From the IMG/VR virus record IMGVR_UViG_3300050821_004089, positions 1-54,573 of that record: 54,573 nt of DNA; one strand, 5' to 3'. The notes beneath the pieces were generated by a model. It saw only the letters and a program-made list of their open reading frames with translations, was not told where the DNA came from and did not search any database. This DNA comes from a virus. Both the position numbers and the translations under genes were made by a program. Each line of letters opens with the position of its first letter. Within the stretch, counting starts at the first letter, position 1. This document shows, piece after piece, positions 19,248-44,142 of this stretch.

Positions 19248-19430
19248 ATGATTCTCAAACGACGCAGCGACGATGCGCGGAAGGCTTATTTCGAGGGCCT
19301 AAAATGGGGCCTCGAATTTGCCGCTAGAACGCTGGAACAAGCAAACGATGAAACGTCGCGCATGTGTCTCATTCAGGCGTTACGAGACATGAAAGACTCT
19401 CCGTTGGCGCAGGATTGCACAATATCATGA
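19248..19430 (+). CDS. Small helical protein
   Basis: 60 residues, three bases after the methyltransferase stop and overlapping the next start by four bases (ATGA). Two helices (RSDDARKAYFEGLKWGLEFAAR, read without break only approximately; TSRMCLIQALRDMKD). No family recognised. Lies inside the glycan-type cassette and may be a helper of it, but could also be unrelated. Confidence 0.55.
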   Translation: MILKRRSDDARKAYFEGLKWGLEFAARTLEQANDETSRMCLIQALRDMKDSPLAQDCTIS

Positions 19431-20365
19431 AACTCGTCATCAACCTCATCACCCGCAATCGTCCCGAAATACTAGCCCGGACGATCGAGACGACGCTGTC
19501 GAATATCACCTTGCCCGATACGGTCCTGATGGTGTCTGTCGACAATGATGATGAAGCCACCAAACAAAAGCTGCGCTGGTATAATGCGCCGCAAGTCAAG
19601 ATCGACATTCGTCCGCGCGAGGATACGACCGGAGCAAAATACAATCGCGCTTTGGAAGACAAGGATGCGGGAATCATTGTCAACCTATCTGACTACAACG
19701 CATTTACAGTCAAAGGGTTCGACGAAAAGATCGTCGAGGCGGCATCATTGTTTCCCGATGGTTACGGCCTCGTGGTCAATCATCTGCGCAATGCTTCTTT
19801 CCCCGATACGTTCGCGATGACGCGCAAACTCGCCGACAAGCTCGGCTATTACGCCCCGCCTTTGTTTACCTATTGGTTCTGGGACCATTGGGTATTCGAG
19901 TTGTGCCAGCGGATCGACCGGGTGTTCGTGGCCGATACGCGCGTCGAATACGATAAGCAGGGAAAGCCGCCGACGATGGGCTTGCGCGAACTAGGTTGGT
20001 GGACGACGTTCTTCGACTGCGCTTATCTGCATCGGCGCATGGTGGCGGATGCCATTGTCGATTCGGAGGAATTTGAGGAAGCGTCATGGCGCAAGAAACA
20101 AATCAAGGCGATGGCGCCGCATATCGAATATCGCTCGAAATGGATCAACGACAGCGTGCGCCAGCAGGCGCGTGATCTCGAATGGCAGGCGAGCCAAGGC
20201 GGTATCATCAAGCAAGATGACCGCTACATGCGCGCCAAAGGCCAAGCCACGGCGTTGGTGCCGGGGTTAATCGCCGGAATGCCGCCGGAAGAACAGCAGG
20301 CATGGGCGGCGCGATTGCTCCCGCCCGCGAACGTGGTGAATATACAGAGGGTGGGGGTGAGATAA
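19427..20365 (+). CDS. Glycosyltransferase-like protein (GT-A type)
   Basis: 312 residues from ATG 19427 (ATGA overlap); a longer frame from 19364 lies in the previous gene. The start LVINLITRNRPEILARTIET with TVLMVSVDNDDEATK and DKDAGIIVNLSDYNAF follows GT-A glycosyltransferases: beta-alpha-beta nucleotide-sugar fold, with DNDD in the place of the DxD metal site. WFWDHWVFELC is a typical acceptor-side segment. The C-terminal ~70 residues are helical and may mediate attachment. Assigned from the pattern; sugar and acceptor unknown. Confidence 0.6.
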   Translation: MKLVINLITRNRPEILARTIETTLSNITLPDTVLMVSVDNDDEATKQKLRWYNAPQVKIDIRPREDTTGAKYNRALEDKDAGIIVNLSDYNAFTVKGFDEKIVEAASLFPDGYGLVVNHLRNASFPDTFAMTRKLADKLGYYAPPLFTYWFWDHWVFELCQRIDRVFVADTRVEYDKQGKPPTMGLRELGWWTTFFDCAYLHRRMVADAIVDSEEFEEASWRKKQIKAMAPHIEYRSKWINDSVRQQARDLEWQASQGGIIKQDDRYMRAKGQATALVPGLIAGMPPEEQQAWAARLLPPANVVNIQRVGVR

Positions 20366-35187: not shown

Positions 35188-36263
35188 ACAAGTCAAAATC
35201 GGACGCGGCCTTCAAGGAGAACGTCCGCACCCTCATGGGAGAAGTGGGCAAGAGCAAGCATGTCAAATCGCGGGAACAGGCCCTAGCGATCGCCTACGCG
35301 ACGCAACGGCGAGGCAAGAAAAAGGGTGGTCCGGTTCACTTCCAGTACGGCGGCTTTGCCAATCCGGCCGCTGCGCCAGTCAGTGGGCCGGAAACCGGCG
35401 GACTTGGAATGGCGGCGCCTCCGTCGCCCATGCCAACGGCCGTGGCCGCGTTTTCCCCGCCTCCCGTCACGGCGCCTGCCCCTACAGCCTATAGCCAGCC
35501 AGCGGCCATGCCTGCGCCGCCGATGGCCCCGCAAACCGGTGCCGGTTTGGGCGGCTTGGGAAGGCTTATGCCGGGCATCGGCGGGGGTGGTCAGTGGGGC
35601 GGGAATCCGGGCGGATTGTTCGCGGGCGCCGGAATGGGTTATCCTGGTTCAATGGCTGGACCGCAGTCAACGAAACACGGCGGCGTGGCGAGGGGGTACG
35701 CGTTGGGCGGACCGCCGATGCCGTGGTTTTCAAAGAATGAGGCGCGCGGGCTTTCTCACACTGGCCCGATTCCGTCGATTGTGCCAGGGCGCACGGATAG
35801 ACACAACGTAAACGTTCGTTCCGGTTCTTATATACTTCCGGCCGACACCATTAGTCACTTAGGCCAAAATAATAGTTCCGCAGGTTATGCGGTCGTCGGA
35901 AAGATGTTCGGGCGCGGACCGTTCGCAGCATCTGCGCCGAAAATGGGGCATCGCATGGGACTTCCCAAGCCGCCGAAGTTACAAGGCGTGATGACTTCGG
36001 AAGGTGGAGCAAGGGGACGCGACCTCGGAACACCCGTACCGATTGTTGCGGCCGGTGGTGAGGACGCGCTATCGCCAGAAGAAGTGGCCATGGTCGGGGC
36101 GGGCGAAGGCGATATAGAAAAGGGCCGTCGGATTATCGCATCAAGCGGCGTCCATCCGATCGACGTGGAGAATGGCCATAAGATTCTCGATATGTTTGCT
36201 ATGAAGATACGCAAGAAACACATCTCCACCCTCAAAGGGCTTCCACCGCCGGCAAAGTCATGA
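35178..36263 (+). CDS. Virion-region protein with DUF6496-like start and GGxV motifs
   Basis: 361 residues from ATG 35178. The N-terminal KSKHVKSREQALAIAYATQRRGKKKGG matches a start module seen in DUF6496-like phage proteins (read in short pieces). GGPVHFQYGG and KHGGVARGYALGG follow. Then comes a Pro/Gly/Ala-rich section (~residues 70-160) and a conserved C-terminal region: VRSGSYILPADTISHLG, SAGYAVVGKMFG and VPIVAAGGEDALSPEEVAMVG, with GHKILDMFAMKIRKKHI. These blocks are common in a family of large phage proteins probably exported with the genome. Likely an ejection-type component. Confidence 0.65.
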   Translation: MPLNKSKSDAAFKENVRTLMGEVGKSKHVKSREQALAIAYATQRRGKKKGGPVHFQYGGFANPAAAPVSGPETGGLGMAAPPSPMPTAVAAFSPPPVTAPAPTAYSQPAAMPAPPMAPQTGAGLGGLGRLMPGIGGGGQWGGNPGGLFAGAGMGYPGSMAGPQSTKHGGVARGYALGGPPMPWFSKNEARGLSHTGPIPSIVPGRTDRHNVNVRSGSYILPADTISHLGQNNSSAGYAVVGKMFGRGPFAASAPKMGHRMGLPKPPKLQGVMTSEGGARGRDLGTPVPIVAAGGEDALSPEEVAMVGAGEGDIEKGRRIIASSGVHPIDVENGHKILDMFAMKIRKKHISTLKGLPPPAKS

Positions 36264-36838
36264 GTTATCTGGTTATCGACACGGAGACTACCGGTCTCAC
36301 CTTTGATCATCTGCGCGCCGACGCGCCGGAACAGCCGCGCATGGCATCATGCGCGCTGTTGTTTGTCAACGATTCTTTGGAGTTGGAACATGAGTGGAAT
36401 GGACTGATTAAGCCGGATGGCTGGACGATGCCGGCTGAAGTCGAACGGATCAATGGCCTGTCGACGGAAAAGCTGCTGGCCTCAGGTGGCGCGGTATTCT
36501 ATTCACTGGCTATCTATGGAGCGGCGGTTGATACGGGCCGCGTCGTCGTCGCCCATAATATTCATTTCGATACGAAAATCATTCGCGGCGAACTCCGTCG
36601 CAGTGGACTTTCGGATCGGTATAATCAAACCCGCACCATCTGTACAATGATCCATGGGCGACGTGTCTGCGGACGCGGTTCGCTGGCGTTCGTTCACGAA
36701 ACACTTTGCGGCGCCAAACTTCAGGACGCGCATTCGGCCCGCGCCGACGCTCATGCATGTTTGCGCGTATTGCGTGAACTCTCACGGCGTGCAGGAAACC
36801 CGTCAATGTTGGTGAATCTGCCGAGGGTTGCCGCATGA
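36260..36838 (+). CDS. DnaQ-like 3'-5' exonuclease (DEDDh)
   Basis: 192 residues, ATGA-coupled. Exo I motif VIDTETTGLTF (residues ~5-15), Exo II NIHFDTKIIRGEL region (~95-107), Exo III ADAHACLRVL (~160-170) with the preceding HSAR supplying the histidine of DEDDh. GLSTEKL and HNIHFD are typical of the DNA pol III epsilon-type family. It would remove nucleotides from 3' ends or degrade RNA/DNA. Its place between structural proteins and an acetyltransferase is unusual for a replication gene; it may travel in the virion or act late. Confidence 0.9.
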   Translation: MSYLVIDTETTGLTFDHLRADAPEQPRMASCALLFVNDSLELEHEWNGLIKPDGWTMPAEVERINGLSTEKLLASGGAVFYSLAIYGAAVDTGRVVVAHNIHFDTKIIRGELRRSGLSDRYNQTRTICTMIHGRRVCGRGSLAFVHETLCGAKLQDAHSARADAHACLRVLRELSRRAGNPSMLVNLPRVAA

Positions 36839-37413: not shown

Positions 37414-40400
37414 ATGTCGAAGGGAACAAATACAACTACGACCAACACCGCTCCGAACGCTGCGGCGATGGGGGCCTATCAGAACTTGCTCGGCATTTCG
37501 CAGGGGGTCGCGAACGCCAATCCGTTTCAAACATATTCAGGCGAGTTTACAGCCCCGGTCAATCAACAACAATACGGCGGAATTTCCAACATCAATAATT
37601 ACGCAGAATCGGCGCAACCGGCCATCGGTGTGGCCGAACGCCTCGCGCTCATGGGTGCGGCTCCGATCACTTCGGGGGACATTCAGGGTTATTATAATCC
37701 GTGGCAGCAACAAGTTGTTCAAGCGACGGAAAATCAATTTCAGAATACCAACGCCCAGCAGCAGCAACAAGTGCTGGGCAACGCGGCATTGCAAGGCGCG
37801 CTCGGTGGCGACCGCGTGGGCGTGGCGCAAGCCAATCTCGCTGGCCAACAGCAAATGGCGCAAGACCCGGTAATTGCCCAACTCGAATCACAGGGGTTCA
37901 ATCAGGCGGCGCAGCTTGCACTCGCGGCAAAGCAGCAGGAAGCACAAGGCGCCTATTCGCTCGGGAATCTGGGCGTGGCAGGCCAGCAGGCCGGATTGAC
38001 CGGCGCAGGCGCGCAAGTTCAAGCCGGAACACTCGAACAGCAGACCCAACAGCAGCTTGACGCCGCCCTGTATAACCAATTCCTCATGCAACAAGCCTTC
38101 CCCTACCAGCAGACCCAATGGCTTGCGGGTATAGATACCGGGGTCGGCTCGCAGATGGGGGGAACCTCGCAGACCACGGTGCCGCCGCCGAGCTTGCTGG
38201 CGCAGTTGGGCGGGTTAGGGCTTGCCGGCGTCGGCGTCATCGGCGGCACGGGCGGATTTGGCAAAAGTGGATGGCTTACAGGTGCCCGCCATGGCGGGGC
38301 TATCGAGGCGCACCAGCACGACGATGGTGTCTGGCGCGTTCCGGGCTTTGCCGATGGCGGGGTGCCGGTGATGATCGGCCAGCCGCTCTACGGCGGTATT
38401 TCGGGGTTTGTTCCGCAGACGCAGATCACCCGCGGCCGGGGAGCACCTCCCCCTCCGGGCACAGCCCCATCCAGCGCCACGCAGATGGTGCAGGATGCAC
38501 AGAAGATCGCATCGGCATTCAAGGGCACGGGGGGCTTGGGAAAATCGACTGTGGGCGCTCCCATGGGGCTCGCACCCGCTGCGGACGGGCCGGTACAGTC
38601 TCCCGGATTGAGCCCCGCCACTACGCCTTTGGGGGATGAAGGAATCTATGCCCGTGGGGGGATCGTTGACCGTCTGCCGACCCATAACCGCATCGATCTG
38701 ACCCGTCGCGCAGGCTTTGGCTTGGGTTCCGTGATGCCGATGCACCGGCAGGAAGGCGGCGATGTGGTCGAGATTCCCGCCGAAGATTTGCCGGCGCAGA
38801 CTCCCCCGGAAGCCTTGGCCGCATGGCGGCAGGGGCGCGATCTGGCGATTGCCAATGGGGAAGGGGGTGTTGGGGTTCCACCATCGGCACTGCCCTTTGC
38901 TTCGACCGAGTCTGCCCCCGTGGCGGGGATTTCGGGGACTCCCGTTGCGGACCGCATGGCCGCGACCTACGGGCAACGGCAGCCTGTGACCGTACAGCGC
39001 GGGACTGGCGAAAGCGTGCCGTGGTCGTCATCTCAATCGAATATCTGGCCGTCGTTGATGGCGGCGGGCTTCGGCATGATGTCTTCGCGTAGTCCGTTCC
39101 CCGGCGTTGCGATCGGGGAAGGGGGATTGCAAGGGCTTGGAACATATACACAGTTGGGCAAGGAACAGCGCGCGGAGGCGATGACCCAACAGAAAATAAA
39201 TCAGGCGGCGGATAATCTCGCGCTGCATGCGGAACAGGTGCAGAAGAACATTGCACATCAGACAAAGCAAGAGAATTTGGAACAAGAGAAGTTCACATTC
39301 ACTAAACAAAAGACGGATACGCCGTTCGGTTGGACGCGCGGCGACAACGGACAACTCATTCCAACTCCCGGTGGCCCGCATGATCCAGCAACCATTCGCG
39401 CGGAGTCGGAAGCTAAGGGCGAAAACTGGAAACAGACATTCGATCCCACGACCGGGCAAATCCTGTGGTTCAACACGAAGACTATGGAGACGCGCGACCA
39501 GAAGGGTAATCCGGTGACGCCGCCCAGTGGCCCATCACCTTCTGCTCCGGTTCCGCCTGCGCCGGGAACACCCACTTCGCAAGAGCCGGCATTGCCTTCC
39601 TCGCCAACTCAGGTGGGCAATGCGCCAGCGGGACCGATCAAAGTTGCCTCTACCGATCCCAATCTCGTGGGAATCGTGCGTGCCAATGCGGCACAGGCGG
39701 CGCAACCGTTCAATTACGGACACGATGCGCCGTATGTCGAAAAAGGCATGGAGGTTCCAGAACCGCAAGCGATCGGCGGCAAGTCCACTGCGGCGATCAA
39801 ACAGGCCGGTGAATATTTCTTGCAAACCGGAAAACTGCCGGCTGGATTTTCCATTCCCAAGGGCAATAATCCCGTTGCGGTCACTCAAGCTTTGGCAGGC
39901 AATTCCGCAATCAACTACGCAAGTGCGCTTGCCAGTTCGCGCGGGATTACGCCCGAGCAGGCGTCCGAGACGTGGCGTTCGGCACCGGGCATGCTGCGGT
40001 TCATCATGGGACCGGATGGGCGCGCTACAGTCTCGCTCGGCGTCGCGCAACGGCACCTTGATACTTTGATGGAATATGCGCGCGAATGGGACAAGGCAAC
40101 AATCTCTGGCCATTCGCAGACGTTGCGTTCGTTGCAAGAACGGATCATGCGGGAATTCGGTTCCGATGCGTCAAGCGGATTGCGTGCGTCAGCGCAGATC
40201 ATGGGGCCGGAAATCGTCAAGGCCATCGGCATCGCCGGTGGAGGTTCCGACAGAGATCGTTCTGAGGCGACTGCCTTGTGGACAGCAGCAAACAGTCTGC
40301 CGCAGATGGAAGCTGCGGCAAAGGCCACGCAACGCCTGATGACCGGCCAGTTGCAGGGCAAGGAAAACATGGCCCTCTCGGTTGGCGTGACGCCGGAACG

Positions 40401-40578
40401 GTTCAAGACTCTCATCGGGCCTCATGAATATGAGCGGTTGAAGCAGATGGAAGGCGGGGGCGATGGTGGCACGACCGCGCCTGCGCAAACCACCACTCCG
40501 CAAGTCCCACCCGGTAGCCGCAAACAAAACGGCTGGTGGTATACACCTGACGGCAAACCGATTGGGCCGGCGCAATAG
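37414..40578 (+). CDS. Very large virion/ejection-type protein
   Basis: 1054 residues. The first ~250 residues are Gln/Ala/Gly-rich helical (YYNPWQQQVVQATENQFQNT, then NAALQGALGGDRVGVAQANL), a pattern of podovirus proteins associated with genome ejection. GGxV units recur: ARHGGAIEAH, FADGGVPVM, YARGGIVDRLPTHNRIDLTRRAG, QEGGDVVEI. Middle is helical and charged (~600-640, LEQEKFTFTKQ). Residues ~780-1000 (VALGVAQ-like blocks AQRHLDTLMEYAREWDKATISG) look compact. C-terminus is Gly/Pro/Thr-rich, ending WYTPDGKPIGPAQ. No enzymatic motif recognised. Confidence 0.6.
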   Translation: MSKGTNTTTTNTAPNAAAMGAYQNLLGISQGVANANPFQTYSGEFTAPVNQQQYGGISNINNYAESAQPAIGVAERLALMGAAPITSGDIQGYYNPWQQQVVQATENQFQNTNAQQQQQVLGNAALQGALGGDRVGVAQANLAGQQQMAQDPVIAQLESQGFNQAAQLALAAKQQEAQGAYSLGNLGVAGQQAGLTGAGAQVQAGTLEQQTQQQLDAALYNQFLMQQAFPYQQTQWLAGIDTGVGSQMGGTSQTTVPPPSLLAQLGGLGLAGVGVIGGTGGFGKSGWLTGARHGGAIEAHQHDDGVWRVPGFADGGVPVMIGQPLYGGISGFVPQTQITRGRGAPPPPGTAPSSATQMVQDAQKIASAFKGTGGLGKSTVGAPMGLAPAADGPVQSPGLSPATTPLGDEGIYARGGIVDRLPTHNRIDLTRRAGFGLGSVMPMHRQEGGDVVEIPAEDLPAQTPPEALAAWRQGRDLAIANGEGGVGVPPSALPFASTESAPVAGISGTPVADRMAATYGQRQPVTVQRGTGESVPWSSSQSNIWPSLMAAGFGMMSSRSPFPGVAIGEGGLQGLGTYTQLGKEQRAEAMTQQKINQAADNLALHAEQVQKNIAHQTKQENLEQEKFTFTKQKTDTPFGWTRGDNGQLIPTPGGPHDPATIRAESEAKGENWKQTFDPTTGQILWFNTKTMETRDQKGNPVTPPSGPSPSAPVPPAPGTPTSQEPALPSSPTQVGNAPAGPIKVASTDPNLVGIVRANAAQAAQPFNYGHDAPYVEKGMEVPEPQAIGGKSTAAIKQAGEYFLQTGKLPAGFSIPKGNNPVAVTQALAGNSAINYASALASSRGITPEQASETWRSAPGMLRFIMGPDGRATVSLGVAQRHLDTLMEYAREWDKATISGHSQTLRSLQERIMREFGSDASSGLRASAQIMGPEIVKAIGIAGGGSDRDRSEATALWTAANSLPQMEAAAKATQRLMTGQLQGKENMALSVGVTPERFKTLIGPHEYERLKQMEGGGDGGTTAPAQTTTPQVPPGSRKQNGWWYTPDGKPIGPAQ

Positions 40579-40580
40579 TC

Positions 40581-43454
40581 ATGGCCGATCCGCCTCCTTT
40601 CGATCCGAATCAACCGTTCGAGACAAGTTCGGCCGGGCCACCACCGTTTGACCCATCAAAACCATTTGAAACACATGCGCCGCGCCAAGGCTACGTCGCC
40701 AACACCGCCGAAGCCGGGCGTTCTGCGCTGGAAACCATGAACCGCACGCTCAATCCGTTCTCACAGTCTTTTCGACAGGGACGTGAACGGCAAATCAAGG
40801 AAGGCCAGACGTTAGGCGAAACGTTGGGCGGCGATACATGGCGCGGCATTGGCGCTGGTGCTGAATTGCTGGCGTCTCCGATCACGGGTGCTTACAAGAC
40901 CGCGGCGCCCTATCTTGCCGATCTTGAGGCTAAAGCCATTCAGGCGATTGGCGAACCGATCGCACGGACTCTGAGTCCCAATCCCGTGTTGCCGACGACC
41001 GAACAGATTTCGCGGGATATCGAGCCGCAAGTGGAAACCGCGTTGGGGCTGGTAGCACCGCGTGCGGGCATGCCAACGGCGGGAAGTGTTTTTCGTCCCT
41101 CGGTTCCGGCACCGCCGGCACCACCGCCGCGTCCGCCGACTTCCACCGGGCCGTTCGGCGTGACATTGAGCGAAGGCCAGGCGACGGGCGATCTTTCGAC
41201 GATCCAGCGCGAGCAGGCGGCATTGCGCGGTACGTCGGGGAAGCCGGCGCAAACGGCGGCACAGGAATTTTACGATCAGCAGCAGGCGCAGTTGGTCGCG
41301 GCACAGGGAGACATCGCAAAGTCTCTCGACGTGCTTGGCAATCAAATTATCGCGGCTGGGCCGGCAGAGGCGGGTGATGTCGTTTCCACTGGGATAGGAC
41401 AGGCAGCGACGACCGCGAAGGCTGGCGTCAAACAGGCTTATGACGTAGCCCGCGGAATGCCCGGCGAGATTCATGCCGGTGTGTTTGAAAATATGGCATC
41501 GGGAATCAAGGGTGACTTGTCCCTGCGGTCGGAGCCGGTGATCGTCGATGACCGGCTGACACCGTACGCTTCGCGCATGATCGACGACATCAACAATCGC
41601 GTTTCTCAATTGCGCATCCAGAATAAGGCCGATCCGTTTGGCCAACCCAATCCTGAAAACATCGTCGGGGTCAACCTCGCGGGCGTGGACCAGATGCGCA
41701 AGCGTCTTTCGTCGATGCGACGGGATGCCTATGCGACCGGTAATGCCGCGGACGGACGCGCTGCACAGGCAATCATTGATGCCTTCGACGAAAGAATAGA
41801 CGGCGCGATCAACGGCGGAAAATTTACCGGCGATCCGCGAGCCGTCCAAGCGTGGAACGATGCGCGTGCGGCCTATGCGGATTATCGGCAGACGTTCACG
41901 GCGGGAAAGAATGATCCGGTCGGGCGTGTGGTGGAACGCATCACCGGAAAAGGAAACAATCCCGCGGCAATTGGTAATGACGTGGCGGATTTTCTTTATG
42001 GGTCGTCGGGGGTGAATCCATCGACGCTCAATGTGAACGTTGCCAAACGGGCCAAATCGATTCTCGGTGAACAATCGCCTGAATGGGTAGGCGCTCGCCA
42101 AGGTTTGTTTTCTCGGCTCACGGAAACACCTCCCGGCGTGACCGACTGGGGGCCGGGCAAGGTCGCCAACCGCATCAACCAATTTCTGAGTGGCGACGGC
42201 AAGGAAATGGCGAAGGTTGTTTTTTCCCAACAAGAGCGCGCGATGCTGCAACGTTACGCCGATCTCATGCGGCAATTGGAAGTGCCGAAGTCGGGCGCCA
42301 ATTGGTCGAACACCGCAACGTTCATGCAGAAAGTCGGCAACAAGATCACCAGCAATACTGCGGCGGTGATCGGCGGTTTCATGGGGCACACCCTCGGTTT
42401 GCCCTACGTCGGGGAGCTTGCGGGAATGGCGGCCGGTAAGGGCGCAGCCAAAGTCATCGGCAAGATCGGCGAGGCGAAGGAAGCCAAAGCCGTTTCCGGC
42501 CTGATGCCCACAGTCGCTAATCAGGTCAAGCAGTGGCAGGCGGCGGTGCGCCGGGCGCAGAGCAATGCCACGCCGTCAACCAGGGCGGCCGTCGCCCTCG
42601 CCAGCACCAAGCTCGCGGGTTCGCTCAAGCAGATGGGTATAACGGCCGTCGAGGCCGGCGCACCAGCAGGTGCCCAGAATCAGCAGAATAAGGTTAATGG
42701 GCCACCACCCCAACAGCATGACGGCGGTGGCGTAAAGCAGGAAGAAAGAGCGCACGGGGGCTCCGTGAGGGGACACTCCATCCTACGCCAGCATGGTGGA
42801 AGGGTCAATGCCGCGAATATCGAACGGGAACCTACCGAAAAGCAAAAGGTCGCGGGTAATTATTCAAAAGAGCACTTGTCGTTGTTCGGTTTGGACATCA
42901 CGATTGAAAACGCGAAGGGCCATGAACGGCGAGGGGTGGATAAGGGCGGCAAGGCGTGGGCGGTGAAAATGCCCGCGCACTACGGCTACGTGAAGGGCAC
43001 GGAGGGTGCCGACCGGGATCACGTCGATGTTTATTTGGGGCCGCATCGAAACGCACCAATGGTTTATGTTGTTGATCAAAGGAATGCCGAAACTGGCGCG
43101 TTCGACGAGCACAAGGCGATGCTCTGTTTTGGATCGGAAGAACAAGCAAAACAAACATATTTGAAAGGATTTTCTGACGGCAAAGGTCGTCAACGGCTAG
43201 GTGCCATGACCAGCATGACGATTGAACAATTCAAGCACTGGCTTGAACACCACGACACGACAAAGCCGCTCAAGGAACGTCCGCCGAAACTCCCTCACGC
43301 GGCCGTGGGTTACGTCGAGGTCTCCCCACACAAGGACAAACGCTGCGGTGTATGTTCCATGTATGTGCAACCGGATAAAGGTGGGCCATGTACCCTTGTT
43401 CGCAACCCTATCGTAAGTGGAGGATATTGCCTTCGATTTAATAAGAAAAGGTGA
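40581..43454 (+). CDS. Giant virion protein with C-terminal pyrophosphatase-like (InPase) domain
   Basis: 957 residues. N-terminus has two tandem PPFDPNQPFET/PPFDPSKPFET units and a Pro-rich linker. The centre (~170-600) is a long helical ejection-type region. Residues ~600-650 are Gly/Ala-rich and hydrophobic (AAVIGGFMGHTLGLPYVGEL). GGxV units HGGSVRG and HGGRV follow. Residues ~750-886 match the InPase domain of polyvalent phage proteins: GNYSKEHLSLFGLDITIENAKG, HYGYVKGTEGADRDHVDVYLG, VYVVDQRNAETG, FKHWL. A Cys motif CGVCSMYV...YCLRF closes the protein. Probably ejected with DNA into the host. Confidence 0.75.
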   Translation: MADPPPFDPNQPFETSSAGPPPFDPSKPFETHAPRQGYVANTAEAGRSALETMNRTLNPFSQSFRQGRERQIKEGQTLGETLGGDTWRGIGAGAELLASPITGAYKTAAPYLADLEAKAIQAIGEPIARTLSPNPVLPTTEQISRDIEPQVETALGLVAPRAGMPTAGSVFRPSVPAPPAPPPRPPTSTGPFGVTLSEGQATGDLSTIQREQAALRGTSGKPAQTAAQEFYDQQQAQLVAAQGDIAKSLDVLGNQIIAAGPAEAGDVVSTGIGQAATTAKAGVKQAYDVARGMPGEIHAGVFENMASGIKGDLSLRSEPVIVDDRLTPYASRMIDDINNRVSQLRIQNKADPFGQPNPENIVGVNLAGVDQMRKRLSSMRRDAYATGNAADGRAAQAIIDAFDERIDGAINGGKFTGDPRAVQAWNDARAAYADYRQTFTAGKNDPVGRVVERITGKGNNPAAIGNDVADFLYGSSGVNPSTLNVNVAKRAKSILGEQSPEWVGARQGLFSRLTETPPGVTDWGPGKVANRINQFLSGDGKEMAKVVFSQQERAMLQRYADLMRQLEVPKSGANWSNTATFMQKVGNKITSNTAAVIGGFMGHTLGLPYVGELAGMAAGKGAAKVIGKIGEAKEAKAVSGLMPTVANQVKQWQAAVRRAQSNATPSTRAAVALASTKLAGSLKQMGITAVEAGAPAGAQNQQNKVNGPPPQQHDGGGVKQEERAHGGSVRGHSILRQHGGRVNAANIEREPTEKQKVAGNYSKEHLSLFGLDITIENAKGHERRGVDKGGKAWAVKMPAHYGYVKGTEGADRDHVDVYLGPHRNAPMVYVVDQRNAETGAFDEHKAMLCFGSEEQAKQTYLKGFSDGKGRQRLGAMTSMTIEQFKHWLEHHDTTKPLKERPPKLPHAAVGYVEVSPHKDKRCGVCSMYVQPDKGGPCTLVRNPIVSGGYCLRFNKKR

Positions 43455-43500: not shown

Positions 43501-44142
43501 ATGAACTATAGAAAGATATACGCATCGTTGGTTATGGGCGCGTACGGCAGGCCCCGAACGGTTAATGGGGTCTTTGAGACGCATCATATTGTGCCAAAAT
43601 GTTTGGGTGGTTCGGATGACGATGCTAATTTGGTCAATTTAACGCCGGAAGAACATTATGTTGCACATCAACTTCTGGTTAAGATGCATCCAGGGAATGG
43701 AAAGCTGTTGTGGGCGGCTATTGCAATGACGGGTACGGGGCATGGAAGGGGTAACGGACGCCACGGAAATAAACTTTATGGATGGTTGCGGCGTAAATTT
43801 ATAGAAAACCAGATGGGGCGGCCGTATTCGGAGGAAACGCGACGGAAAATAGGAATCAAGAGCAAAGAAAGAAATAGAGGTAAAAACCATCCTTTGTTTG
43901 GCACACATCATTCTGCCGAAACACGCCGTAAAATAAGCTTGGGAAATATAGGCAAGATGAAAGGAATACCGAAAGGTCCGTTTTCCGAGGAACACAAAAG
44001 GAAAATAAGTGAGGGGAGACAGAAATTCTTTGCGGCAGGGGGCGAGGTAAATTTTAAGGGCTGCAAACATACGCCAGAAACTAGGGCCAAAATGAGCGCT
44101 TATTGGGCGTCTAAACGAGAGGCTAAACCCCATGCCTCCTAA
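43501..44142 (+). CDS. HNH homing endonuclease with NUMOD3 repeats
   Basis: 213 residues. HNH core THHIVPKCLGGSDDDANLVNLTPEEHYVAHQLLVK with the His-Asn-His spacing. Then several NUMOD3 DNA-binding units (YSEETRRKIGIKSKERN, HSAETRRKISLGN, FSEEHKRKISEGR, HTPETRAKMSAYW). Such enzymes cut and spread into the gene they target. This copy is an independent gene between the ejection and fibre genes, more AT-rich than its neighbours, which suggests recent arrival. It overlaps the next gene by 11 bases. Confidence 0.92.
   Translation: MNYRKIYASLVMGAYGRPRTVNGVFETHHIVPKCLGGSDDDANLVNLTPEEHYVAHQLLVKMHPGNGKLLWAAIAMTGTGHGRGNGRHGNKLYGWLRRKFIENQMGRPYSEETRRKIGIKSKERNRGKNHPLFGTHHSAETRRKISLGNIGKMKGIPKGPFSEEHKRKISEGRQKFFAAGGEVNFKGCKHTPETRAKMSAYWASKREAKPHAS

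Follow-up and report, generated by a model that had tools for sequence, protein, structure and literature searches.

What are a pyrophosphatase-like domain and a set of four cysteines doing at the end of a very large phage protein that appears to travel into the host with the DNA? The locus lies in IMG/VR virus record IMGVR_UViG_3300050821_004089, whose 54,573 nucleotides are hereafter called the window. The protein in question, gp957, is encoded by an intact open reading frame (ORF) of 957 amino acids on the plus strand (40581..43454), predicted to be an ejection-type, i.e. internal virion, protein. Its C-terminal end combines an InPase domain (residues 753-889; 42837..43247, plus strand) with a miniature domain resembling high-potential iron-sulfur proteins (HiPIPs; residues 903-957; 43287..43451, plus strand). 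An initial annotation had placed a pyrophosphatase-like domain and a cysteine motif at 42829-43454, and both features are real, although the stated start misses the reading frame by a single base, with residue 750 beginning at 42828. Our overall explanation, to which we give modest preference, is that gp957 would be injected, that its InPase domain would be active, and that the HiPIP-like module would carry a [4Fe-4S] cluster and act as a structural or docking knob. While InPase is already known as a domain of polyvalent proteins, the HiPIP-like tail is the unusual part.

The InPase match of gp957 is far beyond chance, with PF18823 covering residues 753-889 over its full length (profile positions 1-135 of 135) at E 3.1e-50 and 170 bits (cut-off 26.8), just where the domain had been suspected near the C-terminus. 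Many phages have annotated polyvalent, portal, or minor head proteins that resemble this stretch, and its top sequence match in the PDB is portal gp19 of phage Pa193. Relatives of gp957 occur in 456 phage records, and among the matches listed all fall in the InPase stretch. An AlphaFold model of residues 750-957, built with ten relatives from the fetched loci, was mostly confident in the InPase part. All 50 listed Foldseek matches of this model in the PDB were inorganic pyrophosphatases (that of Mycobacterium tuberculosis at E 4e-4), with TM-scores kept modest by the low-confidence tail, which formed part of the query. On this model the domain has the OB-type fold of family I pyrophosphatases, and the other fold that would have spoken against the initial annotation did not appear. 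Moreover, when a profile of 11 InPase domains is aligned with cellular family I enzymes, its D-x-D-x-x-D stretch coincides with their DGDPxD motif. In the profile alignment to the M. tuberculosis enzyme, a sequence-level comparison, the InPase domain is shorter in one segment, the cellular enzymes having a beta hairpin.

The predicted active-site residues of gp957 are E776, Y801, D811, D813, D816, D842, and K845. Across 173 InPase domains, D816 is invariant, D811 and E776 are each kept in 172, R783 and Y801 in at least 172, and the position of D813 is occupied by D or E in 170. The loci had been retrieved in part by their DEHK and IEN..R stretches, which biases the conservation, and only D811, D813, and D816 are free of this effect. 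The catalytic acidic residues, on whose presence in relatives the initial annotation had made its proposal depend, are thus retained. With its metal-binding acidic residues intact, the domain would hydrolyse pyrophosphate (PPi) or a nucleotide phosphoanhydride bond early in infection, and we regard it as a family I pyrophosphatase-type domain with putative hydrolase activity. Should it be inactive and serve only for binding, this would agree with the structure of the Pa193 portal, in which residues 529-765 including the InPase domain are not resolved (PMC11042391), and with the lack of any activity report for this family in the literature examined. The near-invariance of D811, D816, E776, and Y801 (172-173 of 173 domains) and the acidic residue at 813 in 170 argue against an inactive domain, which we consider quite improbable. 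A connection to ADP-ribose-type signals, likewise raised initially, found no support: gp957 contains no ADP-ribose-specific domain that we could find, and NUDIX, tried as a related candidate, accompanies the HiPIP-like module in other phages only.

HiPIPs are electron carriers of photosynthetic and iron-oxidising bacteria. The cysteine motif of gp957 reads C922-x2-C925-x11-C937-x12-C950 and runs into the C-terminal end GYCLRFNKKR; it had been noticed before as CxxC...C...YC, though not as part of the recognisable HiPIP-like domain to which it belongs. In phmmer searches against the PDB, the last 55 residues of gp957 matched 3h31 (E 8.7e-8) and PioC (E 6.3e-5). A profile of seven phage copies strengthened these matches (PioC E 2e-13, 3h31 E 1e-9, the top five all HiPIPs), and one of 59 phage copies returned PioC at E 6.6e-17 together with further HiPIPs and no other match below E 0.2. 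With the same 59 sequences, AlphaFold modelled the domain at a predicted local distance difference test (pLDDT) of 91 and a predicted template modelling score (pTM) of 0.73, the model being made from phage sequences only and without a cluster. Foldseek ranks 1-17 were all HiPIPs (TMq 0.57-0.81, best E 1.2e-3). VIA-align placed the model at Z 7.4 to 3h31 and Z 6.4 to PioC (2.1 Å over 51 residues, 35% identity), the next tier after the HiPIPs (Z 6-7.4) being the benzylsuccinate synthase complex at Z 3.3-3.5. By both structural comparisons the modelled domain has the HiPIP fold.

The residues that surround a HiPIP cluster are found as well. In the HiPIP Iro they are Cys24/27/36/49 and Tyr14/Phe30/Tyr48 (PMC10654088), and aromatic residues around the fourth cysteine have been linked to a high potential (PMC7462912). 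The domain of gp957 has its four cysteines in the CX2C-Xn-C-Xn-C order, the tyrosine before the first cysteine (Y911), the aromatics one residue before (Y949) and three residues after (F953) the fourth, and Y928. All 59 phage copies have Tyr or Phe at position 911 and an aromatic residue at 953, and 40 have Trp or Tyr at 949. Residues 903-957 thus appear to form a HiPIP-like [4Fe-4S]-type domain, in which Cys922, 925, 937, and 950 would hold one cluster, as judged from sequence and model. Could the four cysteines instead bind zinc, in a zinc-ribbon-like fold that merely resembles a HiPIP? There are weak zf-CXXC and TET1 matches, and Cys4 sites often bind zinc. However, profile and fold searches give HiPIPs rather than zinc ribbons, and PioC, the closest solved relative at 35% identity, holds a [4Fe-4S] cluster (PMC7462912), so zinc is very unlikely.

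The domain scores 15.2 bits against PF01355, below the cut-off of 22, yet this cut-off does not define the HiPIP fold, because PioC, a HiPIP of solved structure, itself reaches only 14.7 bits. The Pfam model is therefore too strict and leaves such HiPIP-like domains unannotated; its narrowness also accounts for the lack of any PF01355 match in a search of five phage records. PHROGs likewise contained no matching family for the isolated domain. Export by the twin-arginine translocation (Tat) pathway, a feature of classical HiPIPs, is missing: in gp957 the domain sits at the C-terminus, and a hydrophobic leader is absent from all 38 free phage copies, whereas the two cellular copies that we read, both from one genome, have a twin-arginine leader. 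Without Tat export features, the domain was filed as HiPIP-like and not as a classical HiPIP.

That these two domains sit on an ejection-type protein, as initially proposed, is supported by gene order and by an N-terminal repeat, from which we infer virion location and injection. The gene immediately upstream (1054 amino acids; 37414..40578, plus strand) matches phrog_4287, annotated as DNA ejection protein, over its residues 1-283 (E 1.5e-6). Another phage, L003, has the counterparts of both genes in the same order, the upstream product being 68% identical and the gp957 counterpart, of 964 residues, 71% identical over its full length. At its N-terminus gp957 has the tandem motif FDPNQPFE / FDPSKPFE (residues 7-14 and 23-30; 40599..40670, plus strand). 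This motif also stands at the start of large proteins in three other phage contigs (L015, L016, and L017), each behind two similarly laid-out genes at the corresponding position of an apparent ejection cassette, and it is a possible head-incorporation signal. Thus, gp957 would close a podovirus-type ejection cassette; it would be incorporated into the capsid and delivered to the cell together with the DNA. In L101, the protein at the ejection position (838 amino acids, starting FDDLVP..YDDLIP) and the InPase-HiPIP protein are encoded by separate adjacent genes (L101:1708-6894), and gp957 and its L003 form are therefore likely a fusion of two such proteins. On the other hand, gp957 might be a structural or late-expressed protein that is never ejected, its InPase domain working in the producing cell, e.g. 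by removing PPi during replication or packaging. The presence of gp957 in virions is itself a prediction, and among the roles suggested by Iyer et al. (PMC5512222) is the clearing of PPi to assist early replication or transcription. The ejection-protein relative next door and the repeat shared with three other apparent ejection cassettes nevertheless make a non-ejected gp957 improbable, and we retain injection as the preferred reading.

One enzyme domain and a HiPIP-like domain are thus found in one polypeptide whose delivery with DNA is predicted. The combination is shared by single proteins of the window phage, L003, L102 (a protein of at least 2208 residues with an ART-PolyVal match), and L176 (L176:3614-6193), where portal, InPase, and HiPIP form one chain. 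In L101 the HiPIP module lies on the opposite side of InPase, in a protein that also matches ART-PolyVal, and in L161 and L124 it lies in the gene next to InPase. These neighbouring HiPIP-bearing proteins of 244-251 amino acids (L161:6467-7201 and L124:2429-3181) contain a metallopeptidase-like LDVKPGLIRHERLE...AH stretch, and related stretches occur in L004 and L101. Among 80 bacterial InPase loci, a HiPIP module adjoined InPase in none. On an InPase tree the seven HiPIP-paired domains cluster, with three changes on the best tree, which was a quick tree from few columns; independent repeated fusion is not supported by this clustering.

How far does the module reach beyond InPase? Two DNA-pattern scans of viral contigs gave at least 240 rows. 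The in-frame length was found in 216 of 241 listed matches where one third was expected (binomial p 2e-74), and at least 192 listed matches are open in frame, placing the module in at least about 190 phage contigs. A profile from only the seven copies that had not been chosen by pattern scored 151 of these 192 below E 1e-3. The matches listed include 136 non-redundant copies, 38 of them in ORFs of fewer than 100 amino acids, 22 in ORFs of 100-149, and 76 in longer ones. The free forms are proteins of 57-90 amino acids, and their neighbours encode terminases, portals, and major head proteins as well as primases. The 76 longer ORFs give matches to PHROG head and packaging families, and in Pfam to prohead protease S78 (13), NUDIX (8), portal families (8), XkdF (4), MuF (4), and Mu-like protease (3), with small numbers of 2'-5' ligase-type phosphoesterases, InPase, and others. 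Per genome, a single module was present in 33 of 39 records with a match and two in the remaining six; these double copies, which either share a short protein or lie in genes next to each other, come from the records behind L223, L264, L331, L354, L360, and L216. The single-copy pattern weakens one explanation considered, in which a phage would use the module as a shared tag for packaging several cargoes. A general basic DNA-binding patch was rejected, as 142 modules average a net charge of +0.4, despite the +7 of the window copy.

Known phages rarely show the module. The window HiPIP stretch gave chance matches only (E 6 or more) by tblastn against 50,697 phage records, and the consensus and XkdF-type queries clearly matched just Synechococcus phage S-SRM01 (two entries; E 1e-7) and Actinomycetia phage DSL-LC01 (E 3e-8), the latter in a head-region gene annotated as capsid maturation protease. 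The consensus also matches plasmid genes annotated as high-potential iron-sulfur protein (E 4e-8), and a relative was present in 5 of 240 genomes of Alphaproteobacteria. We found no report of a phage-encoded HiPIP in the open-access literature on HiPIP with phage, and the module seems to be previously undescribed in viruses.

What, then, might it do? Our best guess is that, inside the capsid or on the injected protein, it would form a structural or docking knob stabilised by its cluster, and would not be an electron carrier. We favour this role because the carriers vary and yet most share the head, because the free copies lack an export leader, and because glycyl radical enzymes have accessory subunits of HiPIP fold whose known roles are structural or conformation-regulating (PMC12358834). 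The main rival is a redox-active module that senses oxidants or nitric oxide (NO) or passes electrons, thereby switching the attached head or ejected protein (here InPase) or acting on the host after injection. All cluster-shielding HiPIP residues are kept, including the fourth-cysteine aromatics tied to high potential by PMC7462912, and the existence of free copies suggests a function of their own. However, we recognised no redox partner gene in the window, and the leaders that export cellular HiPIPs are missing from the phage copies. A high-potential cluster, moreover, normally remains reduced in the cytoplasm. Taken together, a redox role is rather unlikely. Somewhat less probable still is a more novel possibility, namely that a mini-HiPIP [4Fe-4S] module borne in the head is widespread among phages, either free or attached to whichever head protein is available, and that it is injected with the DNA and is redox-active or oxidant/NO-responsive in the new host, here coupled to a pyrophosphatase.

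Returning to the injected gp957 with an active InPase domain and a docking module, several observations weigh against it. The docking role is conjectural, and a stand-alone function would likewise suit a module that occurs singly in each genome while its carrier varies. In the joined model of the C-terminus, the HiPIP part stays below pLDDT 50 with two sequences, the domain becoming confident only when modelled with 59 phage modules, and iron-sulfur and zinc sites are not told apart with certainty by sequence. Furthermore, since the seven carriers cluster on the InPase tree, the InPase-HiPIP link may go back to a single old event with later rearrangement. With one 50-residue fold recurring in many uncultured phages, on their portals, prohead proteases, MuF, NUDIX, and InPase proteins, a proposed new class of iron-sulfur head proteins would come within reach of direct tests. 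The finding also bears on whether virions bring iron and redox chemistry into cells, and small phage genes now labelled hypothetical would receive a function-bearing name.

Three other genes of the window deserve mention. Directly behind gp957 lies an HNH/NUMOD3 endonuclease gene (43501-44142), which looks like a homing-endonuclease insertion because it has no counterpart in the corresponding loci of L003 and L101. A gene amid the virion genes (36260-36838) matches phrog_192, DNA polymerase exonuclease subunit (E 3e-29), and a glycosyltransferase-like gene (phrog_14945, E 9e-11) is located at 19364-20365.

Among known systems, gpL of phage lambda is a structural protein described as having an iron-sulfur cluster (account cited within PMC13243795), the feature predicted here for gp957; gpL is a tail-tip protein and not a head or ejection protein, and the likeness is one of description only. 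The phage module shares with PioC of Rhodopseudomonas palustris and other HiPIPs (PF01355) the x12 spacing of the last two cysteines, the tyrosine, the aromatics at the fourth cysteine, and the fold, but cellular HiPIPs are Tat-exported periplasmic electron carriers, whereas the phage copies have no leader and occur on head proteins or alone. The glycyl radical enzyme subunits (BSS, MASS, HPAD; PMC12358834) are likewise small [4Fe-4S] units of HiPIP fold that serve structure or regulation and not electron transport, although they are bound to those enzymes and their fold match to the phage module is much weaker (Z 3.3-3.5). Portal gp19 of Pa193 (PDB 9b41) has a C-terminal InPase domain on a head protein in common with gp957 (phmmer E 1e-25), but it is a portal and not an ejection protein, and no HiPIP module was matched in it. 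A further parallel is the polyvalent InPase class (PF18823) of Iyer et al. 2017 (PMC5512222), which was predicted to be packaged and injected with phage polyvalent proteins and proposed to hydrolyse nucleotides made in response to infection, or to clear PPi; the terms iron-sulfur and HiPIP are absent from that text. With this class gp957 shares the full-length family match, the acidic motif, and a head-associated carrier, while differing in that its carrier is a predicted podovirus ejection protein and that a HiPIP-like domain follows InPase, so that an ejection protein would join the known carriers of this class.
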